The translations under genes were made by a program, and so were the position numbers. A model generated the notes under the pieces. It worked only from the letters and a program-made list of their open reading frames with translations, did no database searches and had not been told where the DNA came from. A stretch of 39,991 nt of DNA from Allomuricauda sp. GTDB lineage: Bacteria > Bacteroidota > Bacteroidia > Flavobacteriales > Flavobacteriaceae. The number at the start of each line of letters is the position of its first letter. Position 1 is the first letter of the stretch. Below, one piece after another: positions 9,174-27,776 of the stretch. The DNA lies in contig JANQRD010000145.1 in NCBI GenBank assembly GCA_028284725.1, forward strand, positions 1 to 39,991. The letters are read 5' to 3'.

Positions 9174-9177
9174 TACT

Positions 9178-10805: not shown

Positions 10806-12014
10806 ATGAATCAGGAAACCCCACAACCCAACTTCGAATTCGTGGCCTTAATGGCTGCACTAATGTCGATTGTGGCTTTGGCCATAGACGCCCTTTTACC
10901 AGCGATATCCGATATCGGTGCCGCCATAAACAGTTTGGATCCGACCGATAATCAGTTGCTGGTAACCATGATTTTTTTGGGACTTGGCCTCGGACAGTTG
11001 TTCTTTGGCCCCCTTTCCGATTGCTACGGACGGAAACCGATTGTTTATCTGGGATTTGGCCTATTTGTAGCTGCTAGTATTATTTGTGTGTTTGCTCCGT
11101 CATTGGAAGTGATGGTCGTTGGTAGAATTTTACAGGGAATCGGTCTTTCGGCCCCCCGAACCTTGGCCATCTCCATTATTCGTGATACGTACAAAGGGGA
11201 TTATATGGCAAAAGTAATGTCATTCGTGGTTGCCTTTTTCATTCTGATTCCGGTGGTAGCCCCAGCCATTGGTAAGGTCATTTTGGATACGATGGGGTGG
11301 AGGGCTATTTTTTATATCCAATTGGCTTTTGGGCTTTTGGTATGTATTTGGTTTTGGAGACGTCAGCCCGAAACGCTCAAACCGGAATTCAAGATTCCGT
11401 TTTCCAAAACTGTTTTTGTTGATGGGACAAGGGAATTTTTAAAATATCGGGAAACCATTGCCTTTACCTTAATTTCCGGTTTGGTGACCGGTGCTTTTTT
11501 GGTGTACTTGAGTGCGGCGCAACACGTTTTTGAGGATTTGTACCACTTGAAGGAAGCATTCCCCTATATTTTTGCTGGCCTAGCCATTTCCATCGGACTT
11601 TCCACATTCTTAAACGGTACCTTGGTGCTGCGATTTGGTATGCGAAAACTATCGTTTATGGCAACTACGGCCTTTTGTGTCATTGCGTTGCTGTATGCTT
11701 TCATCTTTTGGAATGCTCCCAACCCCAACATCTTTATTTTGGTGAGTTTTTTGTCCGCGCAGTTCTTCTGCTTGGGCTTTATGTGGGGGAATTTCCGATC
11801 TATTGCCATGGAACCGATAGGGCATATTGCAGGTATTGGGGCAGCCATTAATGGGTTTGTATCAACCTTGTTGGCGATACCTATAGCTACGTTTATCGGG
11901 GATTTTGTAACAGATAGTGTATGGCCACTTTTCGCCGGATTGGCCATTTGTGGTCTTGTGGCGCTCCTTATTTTTATGATGGTTCGCAGACCGAAGCGAA
12001 TGGCTACAGCCTAA
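10806..12014 (+). CDS. MFS transporter, Bcr/CflA-type drug efflux
   Basis: The 402-residue protein has about 12 hydrophobic segments. Family signs are a first helix with ALAIDALLPAI, motif A in the loop between helices 2 and 3 (FGPLSDCYGRKP), GRILQGIGLSAPR in helix 4 and a proline/glycine-rich motif C in helix 5 (PVVAPAIG), typical of drug/proton antiporters of the DHA1 Bcr/CflA group. Substrate is unknown. It is transcribed alone. Its TAA and the TAG of anmK on the other strand share two bases, so the two genes converge with no spacer. It could in principle serve the neighbouring cell-wall cluster, but nothing in the sequence demands that. Confidence 0.85.
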   Translation: MNQETPQPNFEFVALMAALMSIVALAIDALLPAISDIGAAINSLDPTDNQLLVTMIFLGLGLGQLFFGPLSDCYGRKPIVYLGFGLFVAASIICVFAPSLEVMVVGRILQGIGLSAPRTLAISIIRDTYKGDYMAKVMSFVVAFFILIPVVAPAIGKVILDTMGWRAIFYIQLAFGLLVCIWFWRRQPETLKPEFKIPFSKTVFVDGTREFLKYRETIAFTLISGLVTGAFLVYLSAAQHVFEDLYHLKEAFPYIFAGLAISIGLSTFLNGTLVLRFGMRKLSFMATTAFCVIALLYAFIFWNAPNPNIFILVSFLSAQFFCLGFMWGNFRSIAMEPIGHIAGIGAAINGFVSTLLAIPIATFIGDFVTDSVWPLFAGLAICGLVALLIFMMVRRPKRMATA

Positions 12015-13093
12015 CCATTTTTTGGAAAAAAGATTTGACCGCTACTTGAGTCTGAAGTTGCTCCAGTAACGGAACTCAGTATGTTGACATTACCCTCTAA
12101 GCGTAATACGCCCATCAGTGCAAAGACAAGTGCCTCCTTGAAGGCAATAATGGTTTTTGATGGTATCACGACTTTAACTTTTGGACCTAGTTTTTCTTGA
12201 AGTGTATCCGTAAAAAACTGATTCAGGGCACCACCTCCGGTAGCGAATAGTTTTTGTGTTTTGCCCGATGTATTTGCGTGAACTTCCTTCGCAATTTGTT
12301 CACAATTATGATGAATGAACGTATGGAGCAAATCAGTTTCGTTGGAATCGGAAGCCTCGATCATGGGAACAATTTCTTCGGTAAACCATTCATATCCTGT
12401 GGATTTGGGGTAGGGTAACCGGTAGTATTCCAGTGCATTCAGACTTTTTAGAAGTTCTACATCCAGTTTTCCAGTGCGGGCCAATTTTCCATTTTCGTCG
12501 TAGGCCAATCCTATTTTCTGGGTGATGTGGTTCAAGGGCATATTTGCCAGACCAATGTCATAAGCTACACGTTTTCCATCTTTTTCGAATGACATATTGC
12601 TGATACCACCCAAATTCAAACAAAAATCATACTCATGAAAAAGCAATCGATCGCCAATAGGTACCAAAGGTGCACCCTGTCCTCCCAGCGACACATCCTT
12701 TGTTCTAAAATCGCAGATCACCTGCTTGCCACTGGTATTGGCCAAAAGCTGCCCACCTCCAAGCTGAAAGGTGAATCCGTCCTCTGGACGATGATGTGAG
12801 GTGTGCCCGTGACTTGCAATGAAATCAACTTCCAAACCTTGTTCCTCGATAAATTTTTCAGACTGGGTTCCCAACCAAACCCCATAGTCCTTATGTAGTT
12901 CTGCGTGATCCGTTTCCGAAAGGAAAATGGCATTCTTGAGGTAATCCCGCATTTCTAGATCGTAGCTTACCTCTTTGGTTGCTTCAATAGCGAATTTCCA
13001 ATGACCCTCAGCGTGCCATAAATGGCAATAGGCCAGATCAAGGCCATCCAATGAGGTGCCAGACATCAATCCCAAAACCTTATATGTTTTCAT
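12011..13093 (-). CDS. anmK: Anhydro-N-acetylmuramic acid kinase
   Basis: The 360-residue ASKHA-fold kinase opens the 1,6-anhydro ring and phosphorylates anhydroMurNAc to MurNAc-6-phosphate in cell-wall recycling. The N-terminal phosphate loop GLMSGTSLDGLD is at residues 8-19. Further family blocks are FIASHGHTSHHRP, GGQGAPLVPIGD, NLGGISNMSF, YDIGLANMPLN and the C-terminal ATGGGALNQFF. Length is normal for the family (about 360-370). It is the last gene of the minus-strand run and overlaps the methyltransferase by ATGA, so coupled translation is likely. Its substrate would be made by the NagZ-like gene two places upstream and its product used by MurQ on the other arm of the cluster. Confidence 0.95.
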   Translation of the reverse strand: MKTYKVLGLMSGTSLDGLDLAYCHLWHAEGHWKFAIEATKEVSYDLEMRDYLKNAIFLSETDHAELHKDYGVWLGTQSEKFIEEQGLEVDFIASHGHTSHHRPEDGFTFQLGGGQLLANTSGKQVICDFRTKDVSLGGQGAPLVPIGDRLLFHEYDFCLNLGGISNMSFEKDGKRVAYDIGLANMPLNHITQKIGLAYDENGKLARTGKLDVELLKSLNALEYYRLPYPKSTGYEWFTEEIVPMIEASDSNETDLLHTFIHHNCEQIAKEVHANTSGKTQKLFATGGGALNQFFTDTLQEKLGPKVKVVIPSKTIIAFKEALVFALMGVLRLEGNVNILSSVTGATSDSSSGQIFFPKNG

Positions 13094-13761
13094 GACATTT
13101 TCTGAATTTGGATGATTAGGGAAACAGGTGTTTGTTCATCATTTACTACCTCTTCGAAGGAATAATTCGTGTTTTCGATGCTTACAAGATTTTTTGACCA
13201 ATCTTCAAAAGTTCGGGCATACCAGGCATGTCCATCCGTAAAATTTCCAGGAAGCCCCTTCCATGAATCAGAGAGCCACTGACTTTGGTATGGAAGTCCA
13301 TTTTGAATCAAAAAATAAGGATGCAAGGTCTGTATGATAAGATATCCATTGGAATTAATGGCCTTCAGCGTATTTTCCAAAAGAGGTTGAAGTCCATTTT
13401 CCAGATACAGACAAAAATTGAACACTGCAGCATCAAAAGGAGCGTTGGGTAGATTTTTGCCTGCAATGATATCCTCAAAAGTAAATACGTGGTATGACTC
13501 TTTGCCCTTTTGTTTGGCCTGCAGAATCAAAGCTTCAATGGCATCCAGTCCAATTGCCTCCACACCAGTGCGAGCAATTTCCCTTGTTAGCCAGCCCTCT
13601 CCGCAACCAATATCCACCAACTTTTTGGTCTTCAGACTTACAAGCGTATCCAGAATAGCCTTATTGGTGAATTTTCTGGAAGCGATGCTGTTTTCTTCTA
13701 TTGCTTTGATCCATTCAGCGGCATTTTTTTTCCAGGATGGGATAATATCGTCTTGTGTCAT
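13090..13761 (-). CDS. Class I SAM-dependent methyltransferase
   Basis: The 223-residue protein carries methyltransferase motif I, VDIGCGEGW, at about residues 49-57, followed by an acidic residue in GLDAIE for the ribose hydroxyls of S-adenosylmethionine, and a later FDAAVFNFCLYLENG stretch equivalent to motif IV. The fold call is safe, but the substrate is not known. It overlaps both neighbours (anmK and the GH3 gene) by ATGA, so it is a true member of the cell-wall sugar operon and not a passenger in its own unit. It has no signal peptide and would act in the cytoplasm. Small-molecule or muropeptide methylation would be a guess. Confidence 0.8.
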   Translation of the reverse strand: MTQDDIIPSWKKNAAEWIKAIEENSIASRKFTNKAILDTLVSLKTKKLVDIGCGEGWLTREIARTGVEAIGLDAIEALILQAKQKGKESYHVFTFEDIIAGKNLPNAPFDAAVFNFCLYLENGLQPLLENTLKAINSNGYLIIQTLHPYFLIQNGLPYQSQWLSDSWKGLPGNFTDGHAWYARTFEDWSKNLVSIENTNYSFEEVVNDEQTPVSLIIQIQKMS

Positions 13762-15365
13762 GATATGGTTTTAAGTTTGATGGGAAGTTTTCCAACGGCA
13801 TCAATCTCACCGGAAAAGTGTTGGAAGGCCACTTTCTGAAATTCCATGAAATCCTGGTACACCATAACGATACTGCAATCGGGATGAAGCCCAAGAACAT
13901 CCAGCGCATAGGGATTCCCAAAAAGATAGATCAATAGGTCTTTTTGAACAGAAATCTCACTGATGAGGTCAATTACTTTTTGGGATAGACCAAATTTGTT
14001 TTTGGGTTTAACCAAAGGTGGAAACAGTGCTAACACAACCCTTTCATACTTTTCCAGAAGCTCCTTTATTTGCGAAACTGCATGGGTTTGGAGTGTGTAG
14101 TGTCTTTGTCCGAATGCATCTTCAATTTTTTTGGAAAAAGTGTTTTCCGAATTGTTTTCCACGGATAGATTCAGAAAATCGTCAGATTTTAGGGTCGATA
14201 TCAGTTTTGGATCTATTTTTAGTTCAGTTACTGTGTTGGCGGCTATCGCCATGTTCAATTCGATATTCGACTCCAAAGTGTTATTGATGATAGGAGTATC
14301 ATTTGAAAAGGCTTTTTCTTTCAATTTCCAGAATCTTTTGAAGCTTTCCTCGATACGTTGTATGGAATTTCCTTTGGAAATTAAGTCAATCCCCTCTTCA
14401 GGATTTTCTGAAAAGCATAATACATCCATTCCTGCAGCAAATGCTTCCGCTTCCAAAGCCCCTTTTTCCGGATAGTTTTTAGAAACCGCATGCATATTGA
14501 GCGCATCAGAAATAATAACACCGTTGTAGCCCAATTCATTTCGGAGTAATCCAGTAATGATATTGTGCGAAACCGTGGCGGGTTTATCGGCAGCATCAAG
14601 CGCGGGTATTGCCAAATGTCCGACCATAACGGAATCCACACCCTCCTTGATTAGCGCTTTAAAGGGATAAAGCTCATTCTCCAAAAGGGATTCCTTAGAC
14701 TTTTGAATCACGGGTAGCCCCAGATGAGAATCTGTAGCGGTATCCCCGTGACCAGGAAAATGTTTTAAAGAATTCAAGATGCCTGTGCTCGACATTCCCT
14801 TCAAAAAGGCGCTGGCCTTGGAACGTACTTTTTCCTTGTTGTCACCAAAGGAACGATACCCGATAACCGGATTTTCAGGATTGTTGTTGATATCGACAAC
14901 CGGAGCTAGGTTCCAATGAATACCAGCTTTGTTAAAGTCTTCTCCGATGGCCTTGCCTACTTCGTAGATGAGTTCGTTTTTACTCCGTAGCGCCCCCAAG
15001 GTCAGGGCATAAGGATATTGTGGTGTGTTTTCAATACGCATGGCCAACCCCCATTCAGCATCCATGGCTATGAGCAAGGGAAATTTAGCTGCTTTTTGAT
15101 ATCGGGATATCAGTTCTTTTAAACGATTGTAGCTGTTTTCGTTGAAGATGACTTCTTTTTTGCCTTCAAAATTGGTGGCCGCACTGGCCCTACTGTGAAA
15201 AAAACAGATGGAACCAATGTCAAGTTTATGAATCAGGTGCTCCATCCTTTGGATCTCTTCCTCACTGTCGTTTATAAAAATGGCAGGCATAAACAATTGC
15301 CCGACCTTTTGTTGAGGACTTAACCGTGTTTTTGCCTGTTCATATGTTGGAATTGTTTCAGGCAT
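13758..15365 (-). CDS. nagZ: Family 3 glycoside hydrolase, NagZ-like beta-N-acetylhexosaminidase
   Basis: The 535-residue protein has the GH3 TIM barrel (about 1-340) with the NagZ motif KHFPGHGDTATDSH at 201-214, which carries the His/Asp acid-base pair peculiar to NagZ-type enzymes. The nucleophile is Asp287 in VIISDALNMHAV. A second domain of about 190 residues follows, as in longer two-domain GH3 proteins; E. coli NagZ (about 341 residues) lacks it. There is no signal peptide, which fits a cytoplasmic enzyme splitting GlcNAc from anhydroMurNAc after AmpG uptake. It overlaps ampG by 8 nt and the methyltransferase by 4 nt. Substrate assignment rests on motif plus neighbours. Confidence 0.88.
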   Translation of the reverse strand: MPETIPTYEQAKTRLSPQQKVGQLFMPAIFINDSEEEIQRMEHLIHKLDIGSICFFHSRASAATNFEGKKEVIFNENSYNRLKELISRYQKAAKFPLLIAMDAEWGLAMRIENTPQYPYALTLGALRSKNELIYEVGKAIGEDFNKAGIHWNLAPVVDINNNPENPVIGYRSFGDNKEKVRSKASAFLKGMSSTGILNSLKHFPGHGDTATDSHLGLPVIQKSKESLLENELYPFKALIKEGVDSVMVGHLAIPALDAADKPATVSHNIITGLLRNELGYNGVIISDALNMHAVSKNYPEKGALEAEAFAAGMDVLCFSENPEEGIDLISKGNSIQRIEESFKRFWKLKEKAFSNDTPIINNTLESNIELNMAIAANTVTELKIDPKLISTLKSDDFLNLSVENNSENTFSKKIEDAFGQRHYTLQTHAVSQIKELLEKYERVVLALFPPLVKPKNKFGLSQKVIDLISEISVQKDLLIYLFGNPYALDVLGLHPDCSIVMVYQDFMEFQKVAFQHFSGEIDAVGKLPIKLKTIS

Positions 15366-16638
15366 CGTTGGTTGTGGTTTTTTTACCGTAGTCTTCGGGA
15401 TACTTTAAGTACTTCAACACTAAAAAGGCGGGTAGTGCGGCAATCACAACCCACAAAAAGAAGCCGTCGTACCCCAACCATTCCTGGATGTATCCACTCA
15501 ACATGCCGGGTAGCATCATGCCCAGGGCCATAAAACCAGTTGCAATGGCATAATGTGATGTTTTTGAAATTCCCTCAGCAATATAAATGAGATAGATTAA
15601 AAAGGCGGCAAAGCCAAATCCATATCCAAATTGCTCCAAAACCACGGTTCCAACTACGGCGACCAGATTGCTGGTTTGGGTGAAAGCCAACAGTGCATAA
15701 AAGGCGTTGGGCAGGTTTAGAGCCAACAGCATGGGCAACATCCATTTTTTTAAACCATCCCTCGAAATCAAAATACCACCTACGATTCCCCCTAAAGACA
15801 GCATAATAACCCCAACTGTTCCATATATGGTGCCAACTGCCTCCGTAGAGTACGCCAGTCCGCCAACATCTTTGGTGTCAAGTAGAAATGGAGAGGCCAT
15901 TTTTACCAGTTGCGATTCACCCAACCGATAGGTTAAGATAAAAAGCAGGGCAATTCCTATTTGTTTCTTTTTGAAAAATGAGGCAAATACTTGTAAAAAG
16001 CTAGATGGTTTTTCTGCTTCCTTGTTACCACCTGTTTCGAATTTTGGAGCTGCAAAAAAATTGGAAATGGTCAGCAGCAACATTAGTACGGCAGCACAGA
16101 TCATGGTGTAAGACCATGCTTTGGTATTGTCTCCGTATTTCTGTTCCAGGAATCCGGCAAAAATCACCAAAAGTCCCTGCCCTGTGACCATGGCAAGGCG
16201 ATAAAAGGGGCTTCGCAAGCCAATAAAAAAGGACTGTTTTTTTTGGGTGAGCCCGATCATGTAGTAGCCATCCGAAGCCATGTCGGTGGTGGCCGATGCA
16301 AAGGCAGCCATCCAAAAGAATGCCAACGTAATGGTGAAAAAAGCGTTGGAAGGCAAAAAGAGACCTATACCCAAGAAAGCCAGGGAAATGATCAGTTGCA
16401 TCCCCAAAAACCATTTTCGTTTGGTACCATTAAGATCCACAATGGGGCTCCACAAAGGTTTTAATACCCAGGGGAGATATAGCCAGCTCGTGTACAGTCC
16501 AATGTCAGCATTGCTGATCCCCAACCGTTTGTACATGATCACGGAAACCGTAACGATCAGAATGTAGGGAATGCCTTGTGTAAAATATAGGGTAGGAATC
16601 CAGGCCCACGCTCCTTTATCCTTTTGAACTTCGCTCAT
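15358..16638 (-). CDS. ampG: AmpG-type muropeptide permease (MFS)
   Basis: The 426-residue protein has about 12 hydrophobic segments. The N-terminal part shows the AmpG pattern: YFTQGIPYILI, then a conserved loop WVLKPLWSPIVDLNGTKRKW, and ASATTDMASDGYYM in helix 4-5. AmpG imports GlcNAc-anhydroMurNAc and its peptides from the periplasm. AmpG-like proteins are also used for other cargo, so motif evidence alone is moderate; linkage to NagZ-, AnmK- and DigH-like genes raises it. It overlaps the upstream DUF187 gene by ATGA and the NagZ-like gene by 8 nt. Confidence 0.87.
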   Translation of the reverse strand: MSEVQKDKGAWAWIPTLYFTQGIPYILIVTVSVIMYKRLGISNADIGLYTSWLYLPWVLKPLWSPIVDLNGTKRKWFLGMQLIISLAFLGIGLFLPSNAFFTITLAFFWMAAFASATTDMASDGYYMIGLTQKKQSFFIGLRSPFYRLAMVTGQGLLVIFAGFLEQKYGDNTKAWSYTMICAAVLMLLLTISNFFAAPKFETGGNKEAEKPSSFLQVFASFFKKKQIGIALLFILTYRLGESQLVKMASPFLLDTKDVGGLAYSTEAVGTIYGTVGVIMLSLGGIVGGILISRDGLKKWMLPMLLALNLPNAFYALLAFTQTSNLVAVVGTVVLEQFGYGFGFAAFLIYLIYIAEGISKTSHYAIATGFMALGMMLPGMLSGYIQEWLGYDGFFLWVVIAALPAFLVLKYLKYPEDYGKKTTTNDA

Positions 16639-18155: not shown

Positions 18156-18167
18156 GGATGGCAATAA

Positions 18168-18200
18168 AAAAGGCCTACATTACCTAAATGTAGGCCTTTT
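18168..18200 (-). terminator. Rho-independent terminator-like hairpin between susD and the DUF187 gene
   Basis: Two perfectly complementary 14-nt arms (18168-18181 and 18187-18200, with AGGCCTACATT and its complement at the core) flank a 5-nt loop. On the minus strand the stem is followed by a run of six T, as in an intrinsic terminator for susCD transcripts. It ends 12 nt before the DUF187 ATG, so it may be an attenuator that lets part of the polymerases through. Confidence 0.85.
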
Positions 18201-18240
18201 GTGGATTAACTAAAAAACTAACAAACTCAAAATAAGTCGT

Positions 18241-19572: not shown

Positions 19573-19591
19573 CGTAGCTGCTTTTTTTTGA

Positions 19592-22500
19592 TTAGAAACT
19601 GACATTGATTCCCAATTGATATGTTCTGGGTATTGGGACACCTGCAAAGTCGAAGCCACGGACCCCATTACTTTGTCCTGCCGTATTGATTTCGGGATCC
19701 CACCCGGAATAGTCATCCCAAGATATCAGGTTTCGGCCCACTAAACTGAGCTCTACATTGTCCACGCCATCAAATGGAGGTTTAAATCCGTAGGTAATGG
19801 CCAGTTCCCTTAATTTTACAAAAGAACCGTCTTCCACAAATTCCTCGAAAATACCCGCCTGCGCACCACCGAATCCTTTTAGACGATTGCCCAATAGTTC
19901 TTCACCAACATTGGAGCCCCCTCCAAAAATCACATTGTCCAAAAGTCTTCGGTTCCAGTTGAAAACATCAAATCCTTGAACAGCGTCCAATTGGATACGC
20001 AGTTTAAAGTTCTTATAGGTAAACTCATTGATCAATGAACCAAACCAATCGGGGTTGGGATCTCCAATGACTTTGGAACTTGCACCATCCTCTGTAGTGC
20101 CCCTAAAAGGATATCCATCATCATCCAATGAGATGCTTCCATCGGGATCTCGAGCATAGAACTGCCGGAAGAACACCCCAAGAGGTTCTCCCTCGATGAC
20201 AAAGTTGGTGGAAAAACTACCATCCAAAGCAAACTGTCCACCTCCAGCTACTCGGGTCACAACGTTGTCGTTTTGAGAAAAGGTAGCGGTGATATCCCAG
20301 CTAAAGTCGTTCGTTTTGATTGGGGCACCCCTCACCAATACTTCAATACCTTCATTTTCCAAATCCCCGACATTTTCAATTCTTGATCCAAATCCGGTAG
20401 AAGGAGCCAACTCTCTTGGCAGCAACAGGTCGGTCACATCTTGTTTGTAGTAGGTGAATTCAACACCTACCCTATTGTTCAAGAAACCGGCATCAAAACC
20501 TAGTTCAAATTCTTCCTGACGCTCTGGAGCGATGTCCAAATCTCCTTGTTCGGGGGCATTGCTTATAATGTTATTTCCTGCTGGTACTAAACTGGGCTGT
20601 CCATTTAGTGAAAAAGGGGTGAATACCGTAAATCTTTGGAAGGCTGATAATGCCGTTAAGTTACCAGCCTGTCCCCATGACCCTCTCAGTTTGAAAGTGT
20701 TGAAGGCATCACCAAAGGTGTTTTCCCAAAAATCCTCTTCGGAAATCACATAGGAAACACTTGCTTTGGCATATAGCTGGTTGCGTTCGTCCTCCCCAAA
20801 GGTGGACGCACCATCCAATCGTATCGCTCCGTTCAGATAAAGTTTGTCTTTGTAGCTAAAGGTCTGCTGCAAGAAAGAACCCCAATAGGAGATTTGGGAA
20901 CGGGTCTCACCTTGTGCCAAAATACTTCCATCGGAAGCTACTTCCACCACTGGTGCTAAACCGTCCGCCTCGATGGCTACTCTGTCAAATTCTTCGTATT
21001 GCCAAGACCCTCCAAGTGTAGTGGTCGAAGCAATATCCTCTGTAATCGGGGTTTGATAGACAAGGTTTAAATCGCTGTTATACTGAAAATTATTAATGTC
21101 CGCTCTTCTTGAAAAACCGTCACCATTTGGTGATGTGTTATTAATCGGTATAAAAGCAGTAGCAGATTGGTTGTAAAAATCAAGACCCAAAAGATAGCTG
21201 GCACTCAATTTATCCGTAATTCGAGCATTCAATCCAATACTGGTGATGACCCTATTTACTTTTTGACCAAAGTCAAATCGATTTACTGCTTCCGCGGGAT
21301 TTGTTCTGGGAACCAAAAGTGAGGTAACTGGATAAACTCCTGACTCATCAGGGGATGGGTCGATTGAGTTATCGCTGAACACAAAACCCGTAATGGCGCC
21401 ATATGCGGCATTTATTCCACCGTTGGGAATATCGCTACTTACACTGCGTGTAAAGTTCAAGCCAGCATTGATATCGAGCCAATCCCAAGCTTTCTGGGTA
21501 ATGTTGGTCTTAAAGCCTATACGCTGAAAATCGGTATTCTTTATAATTCCCTCGTTATCCAAAAAAGATCCAGAAATGTAGTAAGAGGTTTTTTCATTTC
21601 CTCCAGTAACCGATAGGAAGTTCTCGATTCCGAAACCGGATTCGAAAAATTCGTCCTGTAAGTTGAATCGTTCTACAGGAACCGTCTCCAAATTCTCCCG
21701 GTCAAAAGGATCTACCCATGCCAAGGGAACTTTGTTATAATCGATTTCCTTTCGAAGTTCATTGATTCTTACATTGGTACTAAAGTTGAATTGTGGGTCT
21801 CCCGTTTTTCCTCTTTTGGTAAAAATCTGTACTACCCCATTACTTGCACGGGAACCGTAGATTGCAGCGGCGGCGGCTCCCTTAATGACCTCTATACGTT
21901 CAATATCATTGGGATTCAGATCTACCAAACGGTTTTGGGAATTACCTCCCAAATCAACCAGGTCATTACTGTTACTGGAATTGCTTACAATAATTCCATC
22001 TACAATATATAAAGGATCTGAATTACCCAGAACCGTACTGGGTCCCCGTAGCCTAATACTAATACCCCCGGCAGGATCACCAGAGTTCTGCTGTACCAAT
22101 GCACCTGAGATCTTACCAGAAATGGCTTGATCTACCGCTATGGCACCGTTGTTTACCAATTCTTCCGCTTTTACTGAAGAAATGGCGTTACCTAAAGTTC
22201 GTTTGTTGACCCCTGCAGGGTTTCCGGTTACCACCACTTCATCCAAACTGAGCAAGTCTTCCGAAAGTGAAATATCGTTGGTAACCTCACCCCCCGAGAA
22301 GCTCACACTTATTTTTTGGGTGGAATACCCTAATGAACTTGCGGTTAGGGTGTAATCACCTGTCGCGAGGTTGACCTGGAAGCTGTAGTTACCGTCAAAA
22401 TCGGTGACCGCTCCAAAGGAAGTGTTTTCAATGAACACAGACACTCCGGAAAGCGGAATGTTGTTTTCACTATCTGTTACCGTTCCAGAGAAAGAGCCTG

Positions 22501-22594
22501 GATTCTGGGAAAATGCAAAGGTGCTTATGCCCATGCAAGCCAAAAACAGGAATTGGCGTAAAATTTTTCCATTCATAAAGTTGAGTTTTTCCAT
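19592..22594 (-). CDS. SusC/RagA-family TonB-linked outer-membrane transporter
   Basis: The 1000-residue protein starts with a signal peptide ending about residue 30 (STFAFSQ). A carboxypeptidase-regulatory-like domain follows (about 33-110, GTVTDSENNIPLSGVSV). Then comes the TonB-box-like DEVVVTG at about 118-124 and the plug domain with LRGPSTVLGNSDPLYIVDG and the SusC signature ASNGVVQIFTKRG. The rest is a beta-barrel ending in the aromatic terminal strand LGINVSF. It imports bulky substrates with SusD using TonB energy. A second ATG 18 nt downstream could also serve as start. This is the only SusCD pair in the window and it heads the minus-strand arm of the cell-wall sugar cluster. Confidence 0.96.
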   Translation of the reverse strand: MEKLNFMNGKILRQFLFLACMGISTFAFSQNPGSFSGTVTDSENNIPLSGVSVFIENTSFGAVTDFDGNYSFQVNLATGDYTLTASSLGYSTQKISVSFSGGEVTNDISLSEDLLSLDEVVVTGNPAGVNKRTLGNAISSVKAEELVNNGAIAVDQAISGKISGALVQQNSGDPAGGISIRLRGPSTVLGNSDPLYIVDGIIVSNSSNSNDLVDLGGNSQNRLVDLNPNDIERIEVIKGAAAAAIYGSRASNGVVQIFTKRGKTGDPQFNFSTNVRINELRKEIDYNKVPLAWVDPFDRENLETVPVERFNLQDEFFESGFGIENFLSVTGGNEKTSYYISGSFLDNEGIIKNTDFQRIGFKTNITQKAWDWLDINAGLNFTRSVSSDIPNGGINAAYGAITGFVFSDNSIDPSPDESGVYPVTSLLVPRTNPAEAVNRFDFGQKVNRVITSIGLNARITDKLSASYLLGLDFYNQSATAFIPINNTSPNGDGFSRRADINNFQYNSDLNLVYQTPITEDIASTTTLGGSWQYEEFDRVAIEADGLAPVVEVASDGSILAQGETRSQISYWGSFLQQTFSYKDKLYLNGAIRLDGASTFGEDERNQLYAKASVSYVISEEDFWENTFGDAFNTFKLRGSWGQAGNLTALSAFQRFTVFTPFSLNGQPSLVPAGNNIISNAPEQGDLDIAPERQEEFELGFDAGFLNNRVGVEFTYYKQDVTDLLLPRELAPSTGFGSRIENVGDLENEGIEVLVRGAPIKTNDFSWDITATFSQNDNVVTRVAGGGQFALDGSFSTNFVIEGEPLGVFFRQFYARDPDGSISLDDDGYPFRGTTEDGASSKVIGDPNPDWFGSLINEFTYKNFKLRIQLDAVQGFDVFNWNRRLLDNVIFGGGSNVGEELLGNRLKGFGGAQAGIFEEFVEDGSFVKLRELAITYGFKPPFDGVDNVELSLVGRNLISWDDYSGWDPEINTAGQSNGVRGFDFAGVPIPRTYQLGINVSF

Positions 22595-22666
22595 TTAATA
22601 ATGGACGTTAGTAATTCAATTTAAGTTAGTGCGTTTGATTTCACTGAAGTGATATAGCGTTCATAT

Positions 22667-22674
22667 CAAAAATA
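22667..22674 (-). promoter_or_regulatory. Candidate promoter (-7 element) for susCD
   Basis: On the minus strand this reads TATTTTTG, an exact TAnnTTTG. A TTG at 22696-22698 (minus) lies 21 nt upstream and can be the -33 element. The leader would be about 65 nt. The -33 half overlaps one of the TGCAwTAwTTT repeats, a natural place for a repressor to act. Confidence 0.55.
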
Positions 22675-22773
22675 TGCAAATAATCGAAAAGCTTGCAATA
22701 TTTTGCAATAATTTTTACATATTGACTTTGCAACAGCAAATTTTTGCATTATTTTACCAGCACTTTTGCACAC
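22675..22773. promoter_or_regulatory. Cluster of TGCA-centred repeats, candidate DeoR operators (susC/deoR gap)
   Basis: The 201-nt gap between susC and the DeoR gene holds six TGCA tetramers within 99 nt (starting at 22675, 22694, 22704, 22729, 22745, 22767). Three extend to TGCAwTAwTTT: TGCAATATTTT at 22694, TGCAATAATTT at 22704 and TGCATTATTTT at 22745. A separate inverted repeat TTTGC-AACA-GCAAA lies at 22727-22740. The same two long forms recur in the nagB/deoR gap at 25547 and 25579. A role as operators for one or both DeoR proteins is inferred. Confidence 0.55.
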
Positions 22774-22795
22774 TTTTTCGCGTTAAAAACTAATT

Positions 22796-23542
22796 ATGCT
22801 CAAAGAAGAACGTCATCAGGTCATTTTAAATGAAGTCCGGATTCATAACAAGGTTTTGCTAACGGACATAGCAGAAATTCTGAAGGTTTCACAGGATACC
22901 GTCCGGAGGGATATCAAGGAACTGCACGACAAAAACAAACTGAAACGGGTTCACGGTGGAGCCATTTCCTTGGGATTCAACCATTATAATTATGCCAACC
23001 GCGAGATTTATTCTTTAGAAAAAAAATCAAGAATTGCCGAGAAGGCAGTCTCCTTATTAAAAGAGGGTCAGGTGGTATTGCTCAGCGGGGGAACCACAAA
23101 TCTTGAGATTGCGAGGTTGATTCCACCCTACCTTAATATCACTTGTTTTACACCCAGTTTACCCATAGCAATGCAGTTATTGCCCAAACCAAATATTGAA
23201 ATCATTTTTATAGGGGGGAAGGTGAACAAGGATTCGCAAATCACGGTTGGGGGCGGCCCTATAGCGGCATTATCCGAGTTGAAGGCGGATATCTGTTTTT
23301 TGGGGGTTAATAGTATCCATCCGGCTGAAGGTGTAACCGAACTGTACTGGGAAATTGTACAGGTAAAAAAGGCGATGATCAAGGCATCCAAAAAGGTAGT
23401 GGTTCCTACAATTTCAGAAAAAATACACTCAGTGCAACGCTATAAAATATGCGATGTGGAAAATGTAGATCTATTGATCACCGAGTTGGATAACCACAAC
23501 CCTATTTTGGAATCTTATGGAAAAAATATCGCGATAAAATAA
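22796..23542 (+). CDS. DeoR/GlpR-family transcriptional regulator (first copy)
   Basis: The 248-residue protein has the family's N-terminal winged helix-turn-helix (about 3-57: LTDIAEILKVSQDTVRRDIK then KRVHGGAIS) and a C-terminal sugar-phosphate-sensing domain of the ribose-isomerase-like fold with LLSGGTTNLEIARLI and IFIGGKV(N) loops. DeoR proteins usually repress sugar genes until a phosphosugar binds. It is divergent from susC and convergent with the NagB fusion gene (17-nt gap). It is clearly related along its length to the second copy at 25688. In the IGGTT-equivalent loop it reads SGGTT and the later GVNSIHP differs from the GTGYVDS of its paralogue, so the two may sense different ligands. 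Confidence 0.93.
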   Translation: MLKEERHQVILNEVRIHNKVLLTDIAEILKVSQDTVRRDIKELHDKNKLKRVHGGAISLGFNHYNYANREIYSLEKKSRIAEKAVSLLKEGQVVLLSGGTTNLEIARLIPPYLNITCFTPSLPIAMQLLPKPNIEIIFIGGKVNKDSQITVGGGPIAALSELKADICFLGVNSIHPAEGVTELYWEIVQVKKAMIKASKKVVVPTISEKIHSVQRYKICDVENVDLLITELDNHNPILESYGKNIAIK

Positions 23543-23559
23543 AAGTTCCAGGCGGCAGC

Positions 23560-25503
23560 CTACATGAAATTGTACCGCACAAAACCTTCAATGGCTTCGT
23601 ACTCTGCCATACCAAGTTGATTGTATTTTTTAGCAGTTTCCTTGTTCCTTTGCTCGGCACGTTGCCAAAATTCCCGCTCATCATTTCCGGGGAACATGGC
23701 CGCATCTTTTTGGGATTGGTGCTTAAAAATGGCATTTTTCTTTCGCTCCATATCCATTGGGCCTATCGGAACCGCCATTTCCATGTCGGCTATGTCCCAT
23801 TCTTGCCATGCCCCGCGATATAGCCAAAAGTAGCAGTCCTTGATCCATTCCACTTTGTCCTTTACCAGTCTATCCAATGCCTCGTAAATGATCTGTAGGC
23901 ACACGCGGTGGGTGCCGTGCGGATCGGAAAGGTCACCCGCAGCAAAAATTTGATGAGGTTTTATCTCGTTCAGAAGATCATAAGTGATTTTTATGTCCTC
24001 TTCGGAATGGGGTTTTTTCTTCACGGTTCCAGTTTCATAGAATGGTAGATTCTGAAAGTGTGCGTTCTTTTCTTCCACACCACAATATCGGCATGCCGCC
24101 AGGGCTTCTCCCTTTCGGATGAGTCCTTTTATCTGTTGAATTTCCGGACTGTCTACCTGACCAGGGGATTTAGAACTCAAAAATTTACGTACTTCTTTAA
24201 GTTTGTCTTCCAATTCTTGGTTGTCTTCTTGTACATCTGTGGCGAAATCCAAAAAACGAATGACTTCGTCATCGAACACTGCGATGTTACCCGAAGTTTG
24301 ATATGCTACATGTACTTCGTGCCCTTGATCTACCAAACGGAGTAATGTACCTCCCATGGAAATCACATCATCGTCGGGGTGGGGGCTGAAGATAAGTGAG
24401 CGTTTGGGATAGGGATCTCTTCGTTCCGGGCGTTGACTGTCATCCGTATTGGGTTTTCCTCCCGGCCATCCAGTTATGGTGCGTTGAAGATCGTTGAAGA
24501 CTTTGAGATTGATATGCTCTGCCGAGCCTACTTCGGCAACCAAACTTCCCATTCCATATTCATTGTAATGCTCGTTGGTCAATTTTAAAATCGCCTTGTT
24601 CAACTTTTCAGAGAGCCACAGCACCGCCTTTTTGATGAGCTTGTCGTTCCAGTCGCATTCGCTCACCAACCAAGGTGTCTTTACCCGGGTCAGGGAAGAT
24701 GCAGCTGCGGTATCGAGTATAAAATCACAATTGTCGTGATGTTGGAGGAATGTAGCTGGGACGCTTTCACTGATCTGGCCCTCAACAGATTGCTCTATGA
24801 CGCTTGATTTTCCTTCGCCCCAGGCCATAAGGATAATCTTTTTGGCAGCCATGATGGTACCCACACCCATGGTAATGGCTTTCGTCGGAACATTTTCAAG
24901 ACCAAAAAAATCACTGGCAGCATCCAATCGGGTTACCCTATCCAGCCGAACGAGCCTTGTTTTACTTTTCAGGGACGAGCCCGGTTCATTGAATCCGATG
25001 TGTCCGGTACGTCCAATTCCCAAAACCTGGATATCGATTCCGCCCACCTTTTCAATTTTTTCCTCGAATGCTTGACAAAAGTCCCGTACATCCTCTTTGT
25101 CCAAAGTCCCATCGGGAATATGTATGTTTTTCTCCTTGATGTCGATATGGTCAAAAAGGTGTTCGTTCATAAATCGCACATAGCTGTGGATGGAATCTGG
25201 CTGCATCGGGTAGTACTCATCCAAATTGAAGGTGATCACATTCTTGAAACTCAAACCTTCCTCCTTATGAAACTTCACCAAGTAGTCATAAACTTTGATG
25301 GGCGTGGATCCAGTAGCCAGGCCCAAAACAGCATTTTTACCCTGTTTTTGGCGTTGCCGTATCAGTTGTACAATTTCATTGGCAACCCAAAACGAAGCAT
25401 CCTGTGAACTTTCGTGGATGTGGGTGTTGACCTTCTCAAATTTTCTGGATTCTTCATCACTGGCGTGATCTAGGTTTTTAGGTACCTCAATAAGTTGTGA
25501 CAT
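23560..25503 (-). CDS. nagB: NagB-like glucosamine-6-phosphate deaminase fused to a PIG-L/LmbE deacetylase-like domain
   Basis: The ATG at 25503 gives 647 residues; extension to 25533 would need TTG. Residues about 30-290 are a NagB/RpiA-like isomerase domain with GLATGSTPIKVYDYL (61-75) and NLDEYYP (Asp95, the E. coli Asp72 position). The active-site loop reads GIGRTGHIGFNEPGSS: His168 and Glu173 match E. coli His143 and Glu148, but Thr166 stands where Asp141 is expected. Residues about 368-600 are a PIG-L/LmbE domain with both zinc motifs kept, H375-P-D-D378 and H529-G-T-H532. NagB converts glucosamine-6-phosphate to fructose-6-phosphate. The fusion is known in Bacteroidota; the job of the second domain, perhaps de-N-acetylation, is inference. 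Confidence 0.88.
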   Translation of the reverse strand: MSQLIEVPKNLDHASDEESRKFEKVNTHIHESSQDASFWVANEIVQLIRQRQKQGKNAVLGLATGSTPIKVYDYLVKFHKEEGLSFKNVITFNLDEYYPMQPDSIHSYVRFMNEHLFDHIDIKEKNIHIPDGTLDKEDVRDFCQAFEEKIEKVGGIDIQVLGIGRTGHIGFNEPGSSLKSKTRLVRLDRVTRLDAASDFFGLENVPTKAITMGVGTIMAAKKIILMAWGEGKSSVIEQSVEGQISESVPATFLQHHDNCDFILDTAAASSLTRVKTPWLVSECDWNDKLIKKAVLWLSEKLNKAILKLTNEHYNEYGMGSLVAEVGSAEHINLKVFNDLQRTITGWPGGKPNTDDSQRPERRDPYPKRSLIFSPHPDDDVISMGGTLLRLVDQGHEVHVAYQTSGNIAVFDDEVIRFLDFATDVQEDNQELEDKLKEVRKFLSSKSPGQVDSPEIQQIKGLIRKGEALAACRYCGVEEKNAHFQNLPFYETGTVKKKPHSEEDIKITYDLLNEIKPHQIFAAGDLSDPHGTHRVCLQIIYEALDRLVKDKVEWIKDCYFWLYRGAWQEWDIADMEMAVPIGPMDMERKKNAIFKHQSQKDAAMFPGNDEREFWQRAEQRNKETAKKYNQLGMAEYEAIEGFVRYNFM

Positions 25504-25530
25504 AGGATAGATGATTTTTAGACTCGCAGG

Positions 25531-25538
25531 CAAAGGTA
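25531..25538 (-). promoter_or_regulatory. Candidate -7 promoter element for the NagB fusion gene
   Basis: On the minus strand this is TACCTTTG, an exact TAnnTTTG, giving a leader of roughly 20 nt before the ATG at 25503. It supports that start over the upstream TTG, which lies inside this box. The TGCATTATTTT repeat at 25547-25557 falls between this element and the -33 position. Confidence 0.55.
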
Positions 25539-25546
25539 GTTAAAAG

Positions 25547-25588
25547 TGCATTATTTTGCTGTATTTAATGCTGTTTTTTGCAATAATT
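25547..25588. promoter_or_regulatory. Candidate DeoR operator pair (nagB/deoR gap)
   Basis: TGCATTATTTT (25547-25557) and TTTTGCAATAATT (25576-25588) are exact 11-nt and 13-nt matches, on the same strand, to 22745-22755 and 22701-22713 in the susC/deoR gap. The rest of the two gaps is not obviously alike. A partial copy, TTTGCTGTATTTAATGCTG, lies between them. Confidence 0.55.
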
Positions 25589-25648
25589 AACTTTTTGTTG
25601 ATGTTTTGGTAATGAAAACAGTATAAAATGGCATGGGGAATAATTTTA

Positions 25649-25656
25649 TATCTTTG
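25649..25656 (+). promoter_or_regulatory. Candidate -7 promoter element for the deoR-murQ operon
   Basis: TATCTTTG fits TAnnTTTG exactly and lies 31 nt before the ATG at 25688, so the leader would be about 25 nt. No clean -33 TTTG is seen at the right distance. Confidence 0.45.
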
Positions 25657-25687
25657 TTCCTCAAGTGCAGTATACCACCCTTAATTT

Positions 25688-26437
25688 ATGTTGAAGGAGG
25701 AGCGTCAGCGAACAATTTTAAACGAAGTGGCCTTACACAACAAGGTACTTTTGCTCGACATTGCCGAAATGTTGGACGTATCCATCGATACCGTCCGTAG
25801 GGATGTAAAGGAGCTCGATGCCGAAAATAAGCTACGAAAAGTGCATGGCGGGGCTATTTCGCTGGGCTTTACCAATACTACGGTGCGCAACACCAACATT
25901 TATGCGCTAGAGGAGAAACAAAAGATTGCAACAAAGGCATTGACATTGGTAAAAGAGGGTGCGGTTATTTTTATTGATGGTGGTACTACCTGTCACGAAT
26001 TGGCAAGGCAGATTCCTGATAATATTAAGCTTACTTGTTTTACACTGAGCCTACCTGTTGCCATGGAACTTTTGTCAAAACCCAACATTAAAGTGATATT
26101 GATCGGCGGCGAGGTTTCCCAGGATTCACAGATTGCTATTGGTGCAAGTGCCATTCATCAACTTTCCGAAATACACGTGGACTATGGATTTATTGGCACA
26201 GGATATGTGGATTCACTCTACGGGCTCACAGAATTCGACTGGGATATCGTGCAAGTGAAAAAGGCGGTCATCAAGGCTTCCAAAAAAACTGTACTTTTGT
26301 CGATATCCGAAAAATTGAACTCACAACACCGTTATAAAACCTGTGATATTAATGCCATCAACACCATGATTACCGAATTGGATCCCAGTAATAACCTTTT
26401 AAACCTCTTTAGAAATCACGAGATTCGTCTTTTGTAA
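25688..26437 (+). CDS. DeoR/GlpR-family transcriptional regulator (second copy)
   Basis: This 249-residue protein is a paralogue of the one at 22796: both begin MLKEER and share the winged helix with DTVRRD and (R/K)VHGGAISLGF. Its effector domain has FIDGGTTCHELARQIP, the normal phosphosugar loop. It is first in an operon with murQ (TAATG overlap of one base) and the helical-repeat protein, which suggests MurNAc-6-phosphate or a downstream amino-sugar phosphate as ligand. It is divergent from the NagB fusion gene. The recognition helices of the two copies (SQDTVRRDIK and SIDTVRRDVK) are nearly the same, so they may bind the same operator. Confidence 0.93.
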   Translation: MLKEERQRTILNEVALHNKVLLLDIAEMLDVSIDTVRRDVKELDAENKLRKVHGGAISLGFTNTTVRNTNIYALEEKQKIATKALTLVKEGAVIFIDGGTTCHELARQIPDNIKLTCFTLSLPVAMELLSKPNIKVILIGGEVSQDSQIAIGASAIHQLSEIHVDYGFIGTGYVDSLYGLTEFDWDIVQVKKAVIKASKKTVLLSISEKLNSQHRYKTCDINAINTMITELDPSNNLLNLFRNHEIRLL

Positions 26438-27255
26438 TGAAAATGGAGTATAAGAAAATTACGGAGAATCCTTCAAATTATGACAATTTGGAGTTGATGG
26501 ACACCAACACCATTTTGGAGAGCATTAATAAGGAAGATCAAAAGATTGCTGCGGCTGTCGCCGAGGCGATTCCCCAAATTTCCAAGCTTGTAAATGCCAC
26601 TGCTGAACGCTTCGTTGACGGTGGTAGACTCTTTTATATTGGTGCGGGAACCAGTGGACGATTGGGCATCCTGGATGCCTCTGAAATTCCACCAACTTAT
26701 GGAATGCCACACGACCGTGTCATTGGTCTGATTGCAGGTGGGGACGGTGCCATAAGGAAAGCTGTGGAGTTTGCTGAGGACAGCACCACCCAAGCTTGGA
26801 AGGATTTGACGGAATTCGATATCAATACGAATGACGTAGTCGTTGGAATAGCCGCTTCGGGCACCACTCCTTATGTATTGGGAGGTATCCGCGATGCCAA
26901 AGCAAACGGACTTTTGACTGCGGGGATCACCAACAATCCAGGTTCACCGTTGGCCACAGAATCCGATATTCCAATTGAGGTTGAGGTAGGCCCAGAGTTT
27001 GTTACAGGCAGTACCCGTATGAAAAGTGGAACCAGCCAAAAATTGGTCTTGAATATGATTTCCACGGCCTTAATGATTCGAATCGGTCGGGTTAAGGGAA
27101 ACAAAATGGTGAATATGCAGTTGAGCAATACGAAGTTGGTGGATAGGGGAACCCGTTATCTGGTTGAAGAATTGCAAATGGACTACGACGAGGCTGAAAA
27201 AACCCTTAAAAAATACGGCTCCGTAAAAAAGGCAATTGAGGCTCTAAAATCATGA
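26437..27255 (+). CDS. murQ: N-acetylmuramic acid 6-phosphate etherase
   Basis: The 272-residue SIS-domain enzyme removes the lactyl group of MurNAc-6-phosphate to give GlcNAc-6-phosphate. The phosphate-binding loop GAGTSGRLG ends at residue 77, and ILDASEIPPTYG carries Glu83. A second Glu at position 114 (EFAEDS) also matches; both are the catalytic acidic residues described for E. coli MurQ, with the same numbering. TGSTRMKSGTSQKLVLNM is the other strongly conserved block. It is a little shorter than E. coli MurQ (298) at the C-terminus. Its ATG overlaps the deoR stop by one base, and its end overlaps the next gene by 4 nt. Confidence 0.97.
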   Translation: MKMEYKKITENPSNYDNLELMDTNTILESINKEDQKIAAAVAEAIPQISKLVNATAERFVDGGRLFYIGAGTSGRLGILDASEIPPTYGMPHDRVIGLIAGGDGAIRKAVEFAEDSTTQAWKDLTEFDINTNDVVVGIAASGTTPYVLGGIRDAKANGLLTAGITNNPGSPLATESDIPIEVEVGPEFVTGSTRMKSGTSQKLVLNMISTALMIRIGRVKGNKMVNMQLSNTKLVDRGTRYLVEELQMDYDEAEKTLKKYGSVKKAIEALKS

Positions 27256-27776
27256 TGTCTTTTGAAAAAAGACTACAAGGTGGGCATCCTAATTCTTTGG
27301 GCAATACCATTCAAATCGTCGAGGAAGTATTAAAGAATCCCCATCTTTTTGATGAGCTTTTCAACTGTTATTTTAGCCAGGATGAAGTGGTTCGTCTGCG
27401 CGTTTCGAACGGTATGAAACGTATTTGTAAGGAAAATAAGGGAATGCTCATTCCTTACTTAAATCGGTTCCTGGATGAAATCTCAAAAATTGATCAGGCT
27501 TCAACCCAATGGACGTTGGCGCAATTGTTTTTGCTGTTGGAAAAGGATTTAGACGATTCGCAGATGGCAAAGGCCAAAGGCATTTTAAAAAACAACATTG
27601 CGAATCACCAAGATTGGATTGTGCTCAACCAGACTATGGACACCCTGGGGAAATGGGCTAAAAACGATGAGGAACTGAAAGTATGGCTTGCCCCACATTT
27701 GGAACGCCTATCAACAGACAATAGAAAATCGGTCTCAAAAAAAGCTCAGAAAACACAAGGACTATTGAATCTATAA
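27252..27776 (+). CDS. Helical-repeat (HEAT-like) protein of unknown function
   Basis: I do not recognise a named family. The 174-residue protein is predicted by eye to be almost all alpha-helical, with repeated helix pairs about 35-40 residues long (for example DEVVRLRVSNGMKRICKENK and STQWTLAQLFLLLEKDLDD), like HEAT or ARM scaffolds. It has no signal peptide, membrane helix or catalytic motif. Its ATG overlaps the end of murQ by ATGA, so it is likely made together with MurQ and could be a partner or regulator. It ends 1 nt before the stop of the convergent sugar dehydrogenase gene. Confidence 0.65.
   Translation: MMSFEKRLQGGHPNSLGNTIQIVEEVLKNPHLFDELFNCYFSQDEVVRLRVSNGMKRICKENKGMLIPYLNRFLDEISKIDQASTQWTLAQLFLLLEKDLDDSQMAKAKGILKNNIANHQDWIVLNQTMDTLGKWAKNDEELKVWLAPHLERLSTDNRKSVSKKAQKTQGLLNL

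Follow-up and report, generated by a model that had tools for sequence, protein, structure and literature searches.

We analysed a stretch of 39,991 nucleotides from Allomuricauda sp. (Flavobacteriaceae; assembly GCA_028284725.1, contig JANQRD010000145.1), hereafter the window, in which positions 12011–27776 join an outer-membrane SusC/SusD pair (SusCD) to genes for the recycling of peptidoglycan sugars. The host is a metagenome-assembled genome (MAG) that is 89.3% complete and 5.2% contaminated, contains 26 SusD matches and carries all window genes on one contig; the closest named relatives of the window are Flagellimonas/Allomuricauda. A minus-strand operon runs in the order SusC, SusD, GHL10, AmpG, a NagZ-like glycoside hydrolase family 3 (GH3) enzyme, a methyltransferase and AnmK, and it is tight, with overlaps of 4–8 bases between neighbours from AnmK through GHL10 and gaps of 76 bases between the GHL10 open reading frame (ORF) and SusD and of 19 bases between SusD and SusC. 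DeoR1 diverges from SusC and is followed by the NagB/PIG-L fusion on the minus strand and by DeoR2, MurQ and a small gene on the plus strand. Every gene listed by an initial annotation of this DNA (SusCD, a DigH/GHL10-like lipoprotein, AmpG, GH3, AnmK, MurQ, a NagB fusion and two DeoR regulators) is found here, while the methyltransferase at 13090–13761 had been overlooked. The features are the following:

12011–13093, minus strand: AnmK, anhydro-N-acetylmuramic acid kinase, last operon gene (NF007144, PF03702)
13090–13761, minus strand: class I S-adenosylmethionine-dependent methyltransferase (Pfam methyltransferase domains)
13758–15365, minus strand: GH3 N-acetylglucosaminidase, NagZ-like (PF00933, 3bmx alignment)
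15358–16638, minus strand: AmpG-family inner-membrane muropeptide transporter (8zgz alignment; TIGR00901 under cut-off)
16635–18164, minus strand: GHL10 lipoprotein, Cwp19/DigH-like, in-frame ATG at 18155, imperfect lipobox (PF02638, 5oq2)
18241–19572, minus strand: SusD, predicted surface lipoprotein lid of a divergent lineage (lipobox, predicted fold)
19592–22594, minus strand: SusC, TonB-dependent outer-membrane transporter, first operon gene (TIGR04056)
22595–22795, no strand: divergent SusC/DeoR1 promoter region with weak operator variants (motif scan)
22796–23542, plus strand: DeoR1, DeoR-family regulator (PF00455/PF08220, tree)
23560–25533, minus strand: NagB glucosamine-6-phosphate deaminase fused to a PIG-L (LmbE-like) deacetylase (NF002557, PF01182, PF02585)
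25567–25581, minus strand: predicted DeoR operator in the DeoR2/NagB divergent promoter (motif scan, 23.5 bits)
25688–26437, plus strand: DeoR2, regulator of the recycling core (PF00455, synteny, tree)
26437–27255, plus strand: MurQ (NF003915, 4s12)
27252–27776, plus strand: small gene with a 4-base overlap with MurQ and no Pfam match (relatives in 4/53 loci)

AnmK and MurQ, the two enzymes that mark muropeptide recycling, both exceed NCBIfam cut-offs, AnmK with 501.2 bits against 436 (NF007144) and MurQ with 373.6 against 168 (NF003915; with TIGR00274 it falls just under, 301.8 against 302), and MurQ aligns to the solved MurQ 4s12 (E 1.1e-76). The cut-offs are also passed by SusC (TIGR04056, 570 bits against 368), by the NagB fusion (NF002557, 1077 against 384; Pfam domains Glucosamine_iso and PIG-L) and by the GHL10 domain (PF02638, 244 against 28 bits, E 2.9e-72), for which Cwp19 (5oq2, E 1.9e-102) was the sole solved relative found; both DeoR proteins are over the curated cut-off of PF00455. 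AmpG, GH3 and SusD score under their cut-offs and were therefore checked by alignment to solved structures or by predicted fold. Residues 16–421 of AmpG align near full-length with the solved AmpG 8zgz (E 4.4e-20). GH3 aligns with the solved YbbD/NagZ 3bmx (E 2.3e-58), which we take to be the Bacillus subtilis protein, and the stretch KHFPGHGDT..DSH is common to both; cytoplasmic NagZ enzymes are recognised by a His-Asp motif. SusD, with 20.6 bits against 23.1 (PF07980), has its start at 19572 and a lipobox whose last residue is Cys21, the mechanical ORF start at 19716 being wrong, and its AlphaFold model (predicted local distance difference test score 83.9) retrieves SusD-like or SusCD-complex entries, as judged from entry titles, among the 50 structure matches listed, with TM scores by query length of 0.46–0.68. 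The locus thus has adjacent susC and susD genes, the latter by predicted fold and below its Pfam cut-off, together with GH3 and GHL10 as co-localised degradative glycan-active enzymes, as in a polysaccharide utilization locus (PUL).

Linkage of the SusCD pair to peptidoglycan-sugar genes

SusD orthologues are present in 34/397 Flavobacteriaceae genomes, and we compared their neighbourhoods, taken as the retrieved sequence, roughly 10 kb on each side of SusD. MurQ, AnmK, AmpG or NamZ lie near SusD in 20 of the 33 other Flavobacteriaceae loci (19/26 when counted by genus) and in 0/20 control loci (Fisher p 2.8e-6), the controls being other SusD genes of seven genomes (G236, G370, G227, G229, G125, G014 and G369) that were hand-picked at steps along a ranked list and hence non-random. 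The queries for NamZ, the SSF symporter, epimerase, Mur ligase, D-lactate oxidase and NagX were chosen from the SusD loci post hoc; with only the window's own MurQ, AnmK and AmpG as markers, linkage is seen in 14/33 loci, and with a wider list that adds GH3, the NagB fusion, GHL10, epimerase and Mur ligase it is seen in 25/33 loci versus 0/20 controls. All 24 of the 24 strict marker genes that lie within 3.5 kb of SusD share its strand. Among named SusD loci (the best 80 of at least 481, leaning towards Flagellimonas and Arenibacter), 55/80 carry a strict marker, and loci from Microscillaceae, Fulvivirgaceae and Cyclobacteriaceae have GHL10-AmpG-GH3 (L141, L153, L155; L numbers denote loci and G numbers genomes). 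The link between SusCD and peptidoglycan-sugar genes is thus real, recurrent across Bacteroidota and not accidental. The initial annotation had named an accidental neighbourhood in this strain as a finding that would undo its proposal; the neighbourhood data speak against such an accident, and the comparison of 20/33 with 0/20 rules out a chance neighbour in one strain.

The recycling genes themselves are most often found without SusCD. MurQ is present in 373/397 Flavobacteriaceae genomes, and AmpG relatives of at least 70% identity in 9/60 (the window included), with one more at 38%. The 8 other AmpG genomes have AmpG-GH3-AnmK together with MurQ, DeoR and the NagB fusion and without SusCD or DeoR1, GHL10 being found in 5/8. 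Cluster make-up was taken from 53 of the 76 other genomes with a MurQ identity of 69% or more, and none of the remaining 23 is among the 34 SusD-positive genomes. AmpG is found in 52/53 of these MurQ loci, and SusD is present in only 5 of the 52 and absent from 47, so that the clustering of the recycling genes, which had been taken as special, is ordinary in relatives. The SusCD-free cluster is arranged as glucose/sorbosone dehydrogenase / MurQ-DeoR / NagB fusion-GHL10-AmpG-GH3-AnmK; MurQ, the NagB fusion, GHL10, AmpG, GH3 and AnmK are all present in 31/47, GHL10 was undetected in 15/47, and a DeoR stands at the DeoR2 position in 45/47. It differs from the window in the lack of SusC, SusD and DeoR1 and in the methyltransferase, which is found in 3/47 of these clusters versus 7/33 Flavobacteriaceae SusD loci (and 55/80 named SusD loci). 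Because most AmpG clusters of relatives are without SusCD, the SusCD pair with DeoR1 is an optional accessory module, inserted in an ordinary flavobacterial recycling cluster. The pair is intact in four of the five SusD-bearing AmpG loci (L050, L054, L056, L082). In the fifth (L060, genome G176), the N-terminus of SusC runs into the C-terminus of SusD in one frame of 561 aa at 9023–10708, in the same slot; this collapse looks as if made by an internal deletion and could be an assembly fault.

Different SusCD pairs appear to have entered that slot. In a tree of SusC plus SusD, the pairs from slot loci with AmpG are interleaved with those from loci where NamZ, an SSF symporter with MurQ, or both occur. 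Explaining the slot label takes 8 changes, which may mix gains and losses in this quick tree of hand-chosen rows (L099 and L195 were dropped as incomplete pairs, and the outgroup rows are SusC-only and very long). In L082, the slot is filled by a pair nested among the SSF-MurQ-adjoining pairs of L077, L078 and L080, L078 also having NamZ. A single ancestral SusCD-containing operon inherited everywhere finds no support, given these 8 changes and the SusCD-free clusters of most relatives. One processing set of the SusCD loci is GHL10-AmpG-GH3-AnmK. Another involves NamZ (exo-beta-N-acetylmuramidase by Pfam), present in 9/33 Flavobacteriaceae SusD loci, of which three have an SSF symporter with MurQ and three a distant GH3; three further Flavobacteriaceae loci have SSF and MurQ without NamZ. 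These NamZ proteins are probably cytoplasmic, because their starts, judged by eye, are without a signal sequence and a lipobox is absent in 9/9. N-acetylmuramic acid (MurNAc) would be the common denominator of the differing processing sets, and it is on this shared sugar that the suggested ligand class chiefly rests.

Further arrangements were seen around the same pairs. Stand-alone SusCD islands have a class I methyltransferase directly after SusD. DeoR-SusC-SusD-MurQ-SSF-AnmK-GHL10-AmpG stand in one stretch in L192 and L193 (G704, G627), L192 also having GH3. In L083, GHL10 and AmpG are separated by a 160-aa GNAT acetyltransferase (12938–13420); its cluster has members in 22/80 named loci and none in the window, since GHL10 and AmpG overlap there. 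A large flavin adenine dinucleotide/iron-sulphur oxidase, 2-hydroxyacid dehydrogenase-like, adjoins MurQ and AnmK in L066 (3559–6462) and L073 (from 15048), and we note beside it that MurQ yields D-lactate. Finally, three loci titled Latescibacterota/Latescibacteria (L160, L161, L162) hold the SusCD lineage, with SusD 47–48% identical and recycling genes absent in the stretch, which points to transfer out of Bacteroidota or else to contigs that were binned wrongly.

DeoR regulators and their predicted operator

DeoR1 and DeoR2 are 57% identical, and the next relative in their own genome is at 28%. When 54 DeoR proteins chosen by hand are placed in a tree, DeoR1 of the window belongs to a 17-row clade (100/95) made up entirely of regulators from loci that have SusCD or a remnant of it. 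All 15 regulators of SusCD-free clusters fall in a 27-row clade (100/100), together with 8 core-linked regulators of SusCD loci, DeoR2 among them, and four regulators of stand-alone islands; five more regulators from SusCD loci form a third group. Since the label 'SusC-linked' needs 5 changes on this tree, no single travelling regulator accompanies SusCD. In Arenibacter, Croceivirga and several Muricauda/Flagellimonas loci, the sole DeoR found, beside MurQ, is a member of the 17-row clade.

A 15-base operator motif with the consensus GCAAAAAACAGCAAA was learned from 45 DeoR/NagB promoters, namely 44 of SusCD-free clusters and the window's own DeoR2/NagB promoter. Sites beating 95% of shuffles were found in 30/31 further recycling promoters, in 47/56 DeoR/SusC promoters, a set that includes near relatives and is non-independent, and in 0/12 control SusC promoters. 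The core site of the window, at 25567–25581 in the DeoR2/NagB training promoter, is strong (23.5 bits), with a second variant at 25545–25559. Position 9 of the operator is C in 72/76 core sites, 11/13 sites of single-DeoR loci, 8/13 of stand-alone islands and 2/10 of two-DeoR loci, a comparison made after the sites were seen; post hoc, we read it as a putative duplication of the regulator followed by drift of its operator.

Proposed route and competing readings

The two lipoproteins are predicted to act on different sides of the outer membrane. Mature SusD begins with CETDFDN, and the surface-export consensus of Flavobacterium johnsoniae SusD proteins is SDDFE (PMC5080379). At least two acidic residues (D/E) occur at positions +2 to +6 in 70 of the 81 lipobox-bearing SusD orthologues from the named loci (82 tested, from the best 80 of at least 481 loci) and in 0 of the 34 lipobox-bearing GHL10 orthologues (42 tested). 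Because this acidic signature is found in SusD orthologues and is absent in GHL10, SusD is probably outside the cell and GHL10 probably in the periplasm. GH3 would be cytoplasmic; a lipobox was found in 0/39 of the orthologues tested.

We consider it probable that SusCD serves as an accessory importer of MurNAc-containing peptidoglycan fragments within an ordinary flavobacterial muropeptide-recycling operon. SusD at the surface would bind a fragment, either glycan or muropeptide, for import by SusC. The predicted-periplasmic GHL10 may then trim the strand to N-acetylglucosamine (GlcNAc)-anhydroMurNAc, as Cwp19 and DigH suggest. DigH is itself a GHL10 protein. Cwp19 is reported to act as a lytic transglycosylase that yields anhydro products (PMC6016235), and DigH to release anhydromuropeptides from denuded strands (PMC12288456); by analogy, products of this type would feed AmpG, NagZ and AnmK. 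Judging by the family assignments, AmpG would bring in the disaccharide, the NagZ-like GH3 would split it, AnmK would form MurNAc-6-phosphate and MurQ would convert this to GlcNAc-6-phosphate and D-lactate. The AmpG of Tannerella forsythia imports both GlcNAc-anhMurNAc and GlcNAc-MurNAc (PMC7670621).

For the last steps, no NagA match was found in the host MAG at E 1e-10, which sets NagA aside as the GlcNAc-6-phosphate deacetylase here. A long NagA match (>200 bits; over the curated cut-off in 2) is seen in 5/12 relatives, the other 7 having only short matches below 40 bits. All 57 of 57 sequences keep the PIG-L stretches HPDDD and DPHGTH of the NagB fusion intact, and the PIG-L half of the fusion is the likelier deacetylase here; the simplest reading is that the fusion would perform both steps, the PIG-L half deacetylating and the NagB half deaminating to fructose-6-phosphate. 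The initial annotation overstated the case for a complete route from outside glycan to central metabolism: such a route needs a GlcNAc-6-phosphate deacetylase, and because NagA is not found, the PIG-L half must be assumed to fill that role. The claim that the glycan is peptidoglycan agrees with the recurrent gene link, and the ligand of SusD is what we infer from it. Uptake is predicted to be controlled by DeoR1, a paralogue of the core regulator DeoR2; loci in which a single DeoR is shared by MurQ and SusC are predicted to have the recycling operator in front of SusC as well.

Several observations weigh against this proposal. The host genome is an incomplete MAG, and the assignments of two pathway members fall below curated cut-offs (AmpG, TIGR00901, 177.6 bits against 350; GH3, NagZ model NF003740, 162.6 against 207). 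For removal of stem peptides, the genome offers one Amidase_2 protein, encoded elsewhere. The operator variants in the SusC/DeoR1 promoter of the window (22743–22757, 8.8 bits; 22692–22706, 7.2 bits) are both below the line of 9.34 bits that holds for the whole set. No marker gene, even of the wider list, is found in 8/33 Flavobacteriaceae SusD loci: L057 and L058 are on short contigs, L075, L079 and L081 are plainly unlinked, and the other three are DeoR-SusC-SusD-methyltransferase islands in genomes with a SusCD-free core elsewhere (L052/L216, L053/L219, L055/L231). The neighbourhood search across Bacteroidota that had been proposed earlier finds the link recurrent within the family and thinning in distant homologues, where phylum-level profile hits (20 of 24 further SusD-positive genomes covered) give a strict marker in 6/20 and a gene of the wider list in 8/20. 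NamZ, SSF and MurQ occur together in just 3/9 NamZ loci, and in another 3/9 NamZ is without SSF, MurQ, AnmK, GH3 or the NagB fusion. The regulators of stand-alone islands group with the core type, and those linked to SusC do not form one clade.

The most serious alternative, which we nevertheless consider unlikely, is that SusCD recaptures the cell's own leaked turnover fragments, as a salvage aid and not for foraging. It fits a remaining operon that is the recycling set kept without SusCD in 47/52 of the AmpG-bearing relatives' loci and whose enzymes are all predicted to act inside the cell, GHL10 in the periplasm. Against it, SusCD units stand apart from a SusCD-free core within the same genome (G189, G227, G347) or have a second, separate MurQ copy (G236, G340, G369), which argues for a nutrient module more than a housekeeping one.

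Still less likely is that the substrate of SusCD is another amino-sugar glycan, such as chitin or oligosaccharides of GlcNAc, with only the later pathway steps in common. Any source of GlcNAc would fit with the NagB fusion and with control of DeoR type, 3/33 of the Flavobacteriaceae SusCD loci are marker-free DeoR and methyltransferase islands, and in the Maribacter loci L095 and L098 the next genes are a flavin mononucleotide dehydrogenase and a carboxylesterase. However, MurNAc compounds are the substrates of MurQ, AnmK and NamZ, the recurrent partners, and a chitinase was called in none of the neighbours given to Pfam. As for a neutral passenger, or a pair with an unrelated ligand placed in the operon by historical accident, we hold it very improbable: SusCD is absent from most of the relatives' clusters examined, collapsed in G176/L060 and often unlinked in distant homologues, but the linkage of 20/33 against 0/20, the repeated filling of the same slot and the operator shared in most DeoR/SusC promoters tested all speak against it.

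An accessory importer of MurNAc fragments could also be part of something wider. It is possible, and we propose it only tentatively, that a dedicated SusCD family for MurNAc fragments has spread through Bacteroidota, often with its own DeoR and methyltransferase, repeatedly joining different processing sets, and that DeoR1 and its operator, once duplicated, drifted to a separate code in Flagellimonas/Allomuricauda. This wider reading is weakened by the finding that just 3/9 loci combine NamZ, SSF and MurQ and that the SusC-linked regulators form no single clade. To our knowledge, the AmpG pathway has a gap at the inward passage of muropeptides through the outer membrane. If the proposal is true, a textbook self-recycling pathway would become a route for eating the walls of other bacteria, with uptake, regulation and recycling in one operon; a testable candidate family would be at hand in Flagellimonas, Allomuricauda and Arenibacter, and the use of bacterial cell-wall carbon and nitrogen by marine Bacteroidota would be explained in part.

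Comparison with known systems

Canonical SusCD PULs share with the window a SusC/SusD pair, glycan-processing enzymes and a local regulator; unlike them, the window has a downstream set that is mostly a cytoplasmic recycling pathway, and regulators of DeoR type. In E. coli, recycling genes are scattered and we know of no dedicated outer-membrane importer for this pathway. The enzyme chain that we infer here is the same as AmpG-NagZ-AnmK-MurQ with DigH (PMC12288456) in E. coli. The ampG/murTKQ operon of T. forsythia, which is one transcription unit and serves feeding on external muropeptides, resembles the window in the co-occurrence of AmpG and MurQ and differs from it in having nine genes, including MurT and MurK (PMC7670621, PMC5790795); the term SusD is absent from the main text of PMC7670621. 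Rhodothermus RmNag3 was rejected as a precedent, its paper stating that the organism is without AmpG. In the available parts of PMC10877868 and PMC4829426, which deal with peptidoglycan genes in general, no SusCD-peptidoglycan locus was found, and our literature search, mostly outside subscription journals and excluding preprints, found no tested SusCD for peptidoglycan fragments among the papers listed.

The closest published system is a murein-gene PUL of about 27 kb in the symbiont Urechidicola (ISME Commun 2023, PMC10199937), with two susCD pairs, deoR, murQ, nagB, ampG, GH3, GH171 (NamZ), GH10, ampD and an L-Ala-D/L-Glu epimerase, most of whose genes the authors assign to murein metabolism with support from annotation and expression. 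The window combines susCD, murQ, ampG, nagB, GH3 and deoR in the same way, and deoR in that PUL removes DeoR control as a distinctive trait of the window. The two differ in that the window has one susCD pair, AnmK and two DeoR genes, and the Urechidicola PUL has a second pair and extra genes for the peptide side; NamZ has no match in our host genome, and Pfam calls no peptide-side genes among the scanned locus proteins. Since the Urechidicola PUL, with susCD and deoR, is already in print, the novelty of the window is moderate and lies in the recurrence, the regulator history and a testable ligand.

Two further genes lie beyond the small gene that ends the locus. At 27778–28896, the window encodes a glucose/sorbosone-dehydrogenase-like protein, relatives of which are found in 49/53 loci with window-type MurQ, with or without SusCD. 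At 29042–37363, beside the locus, it encodes a protein of 2773 aa that combines SprB repeats with a CHU_C type IX secretion signal.

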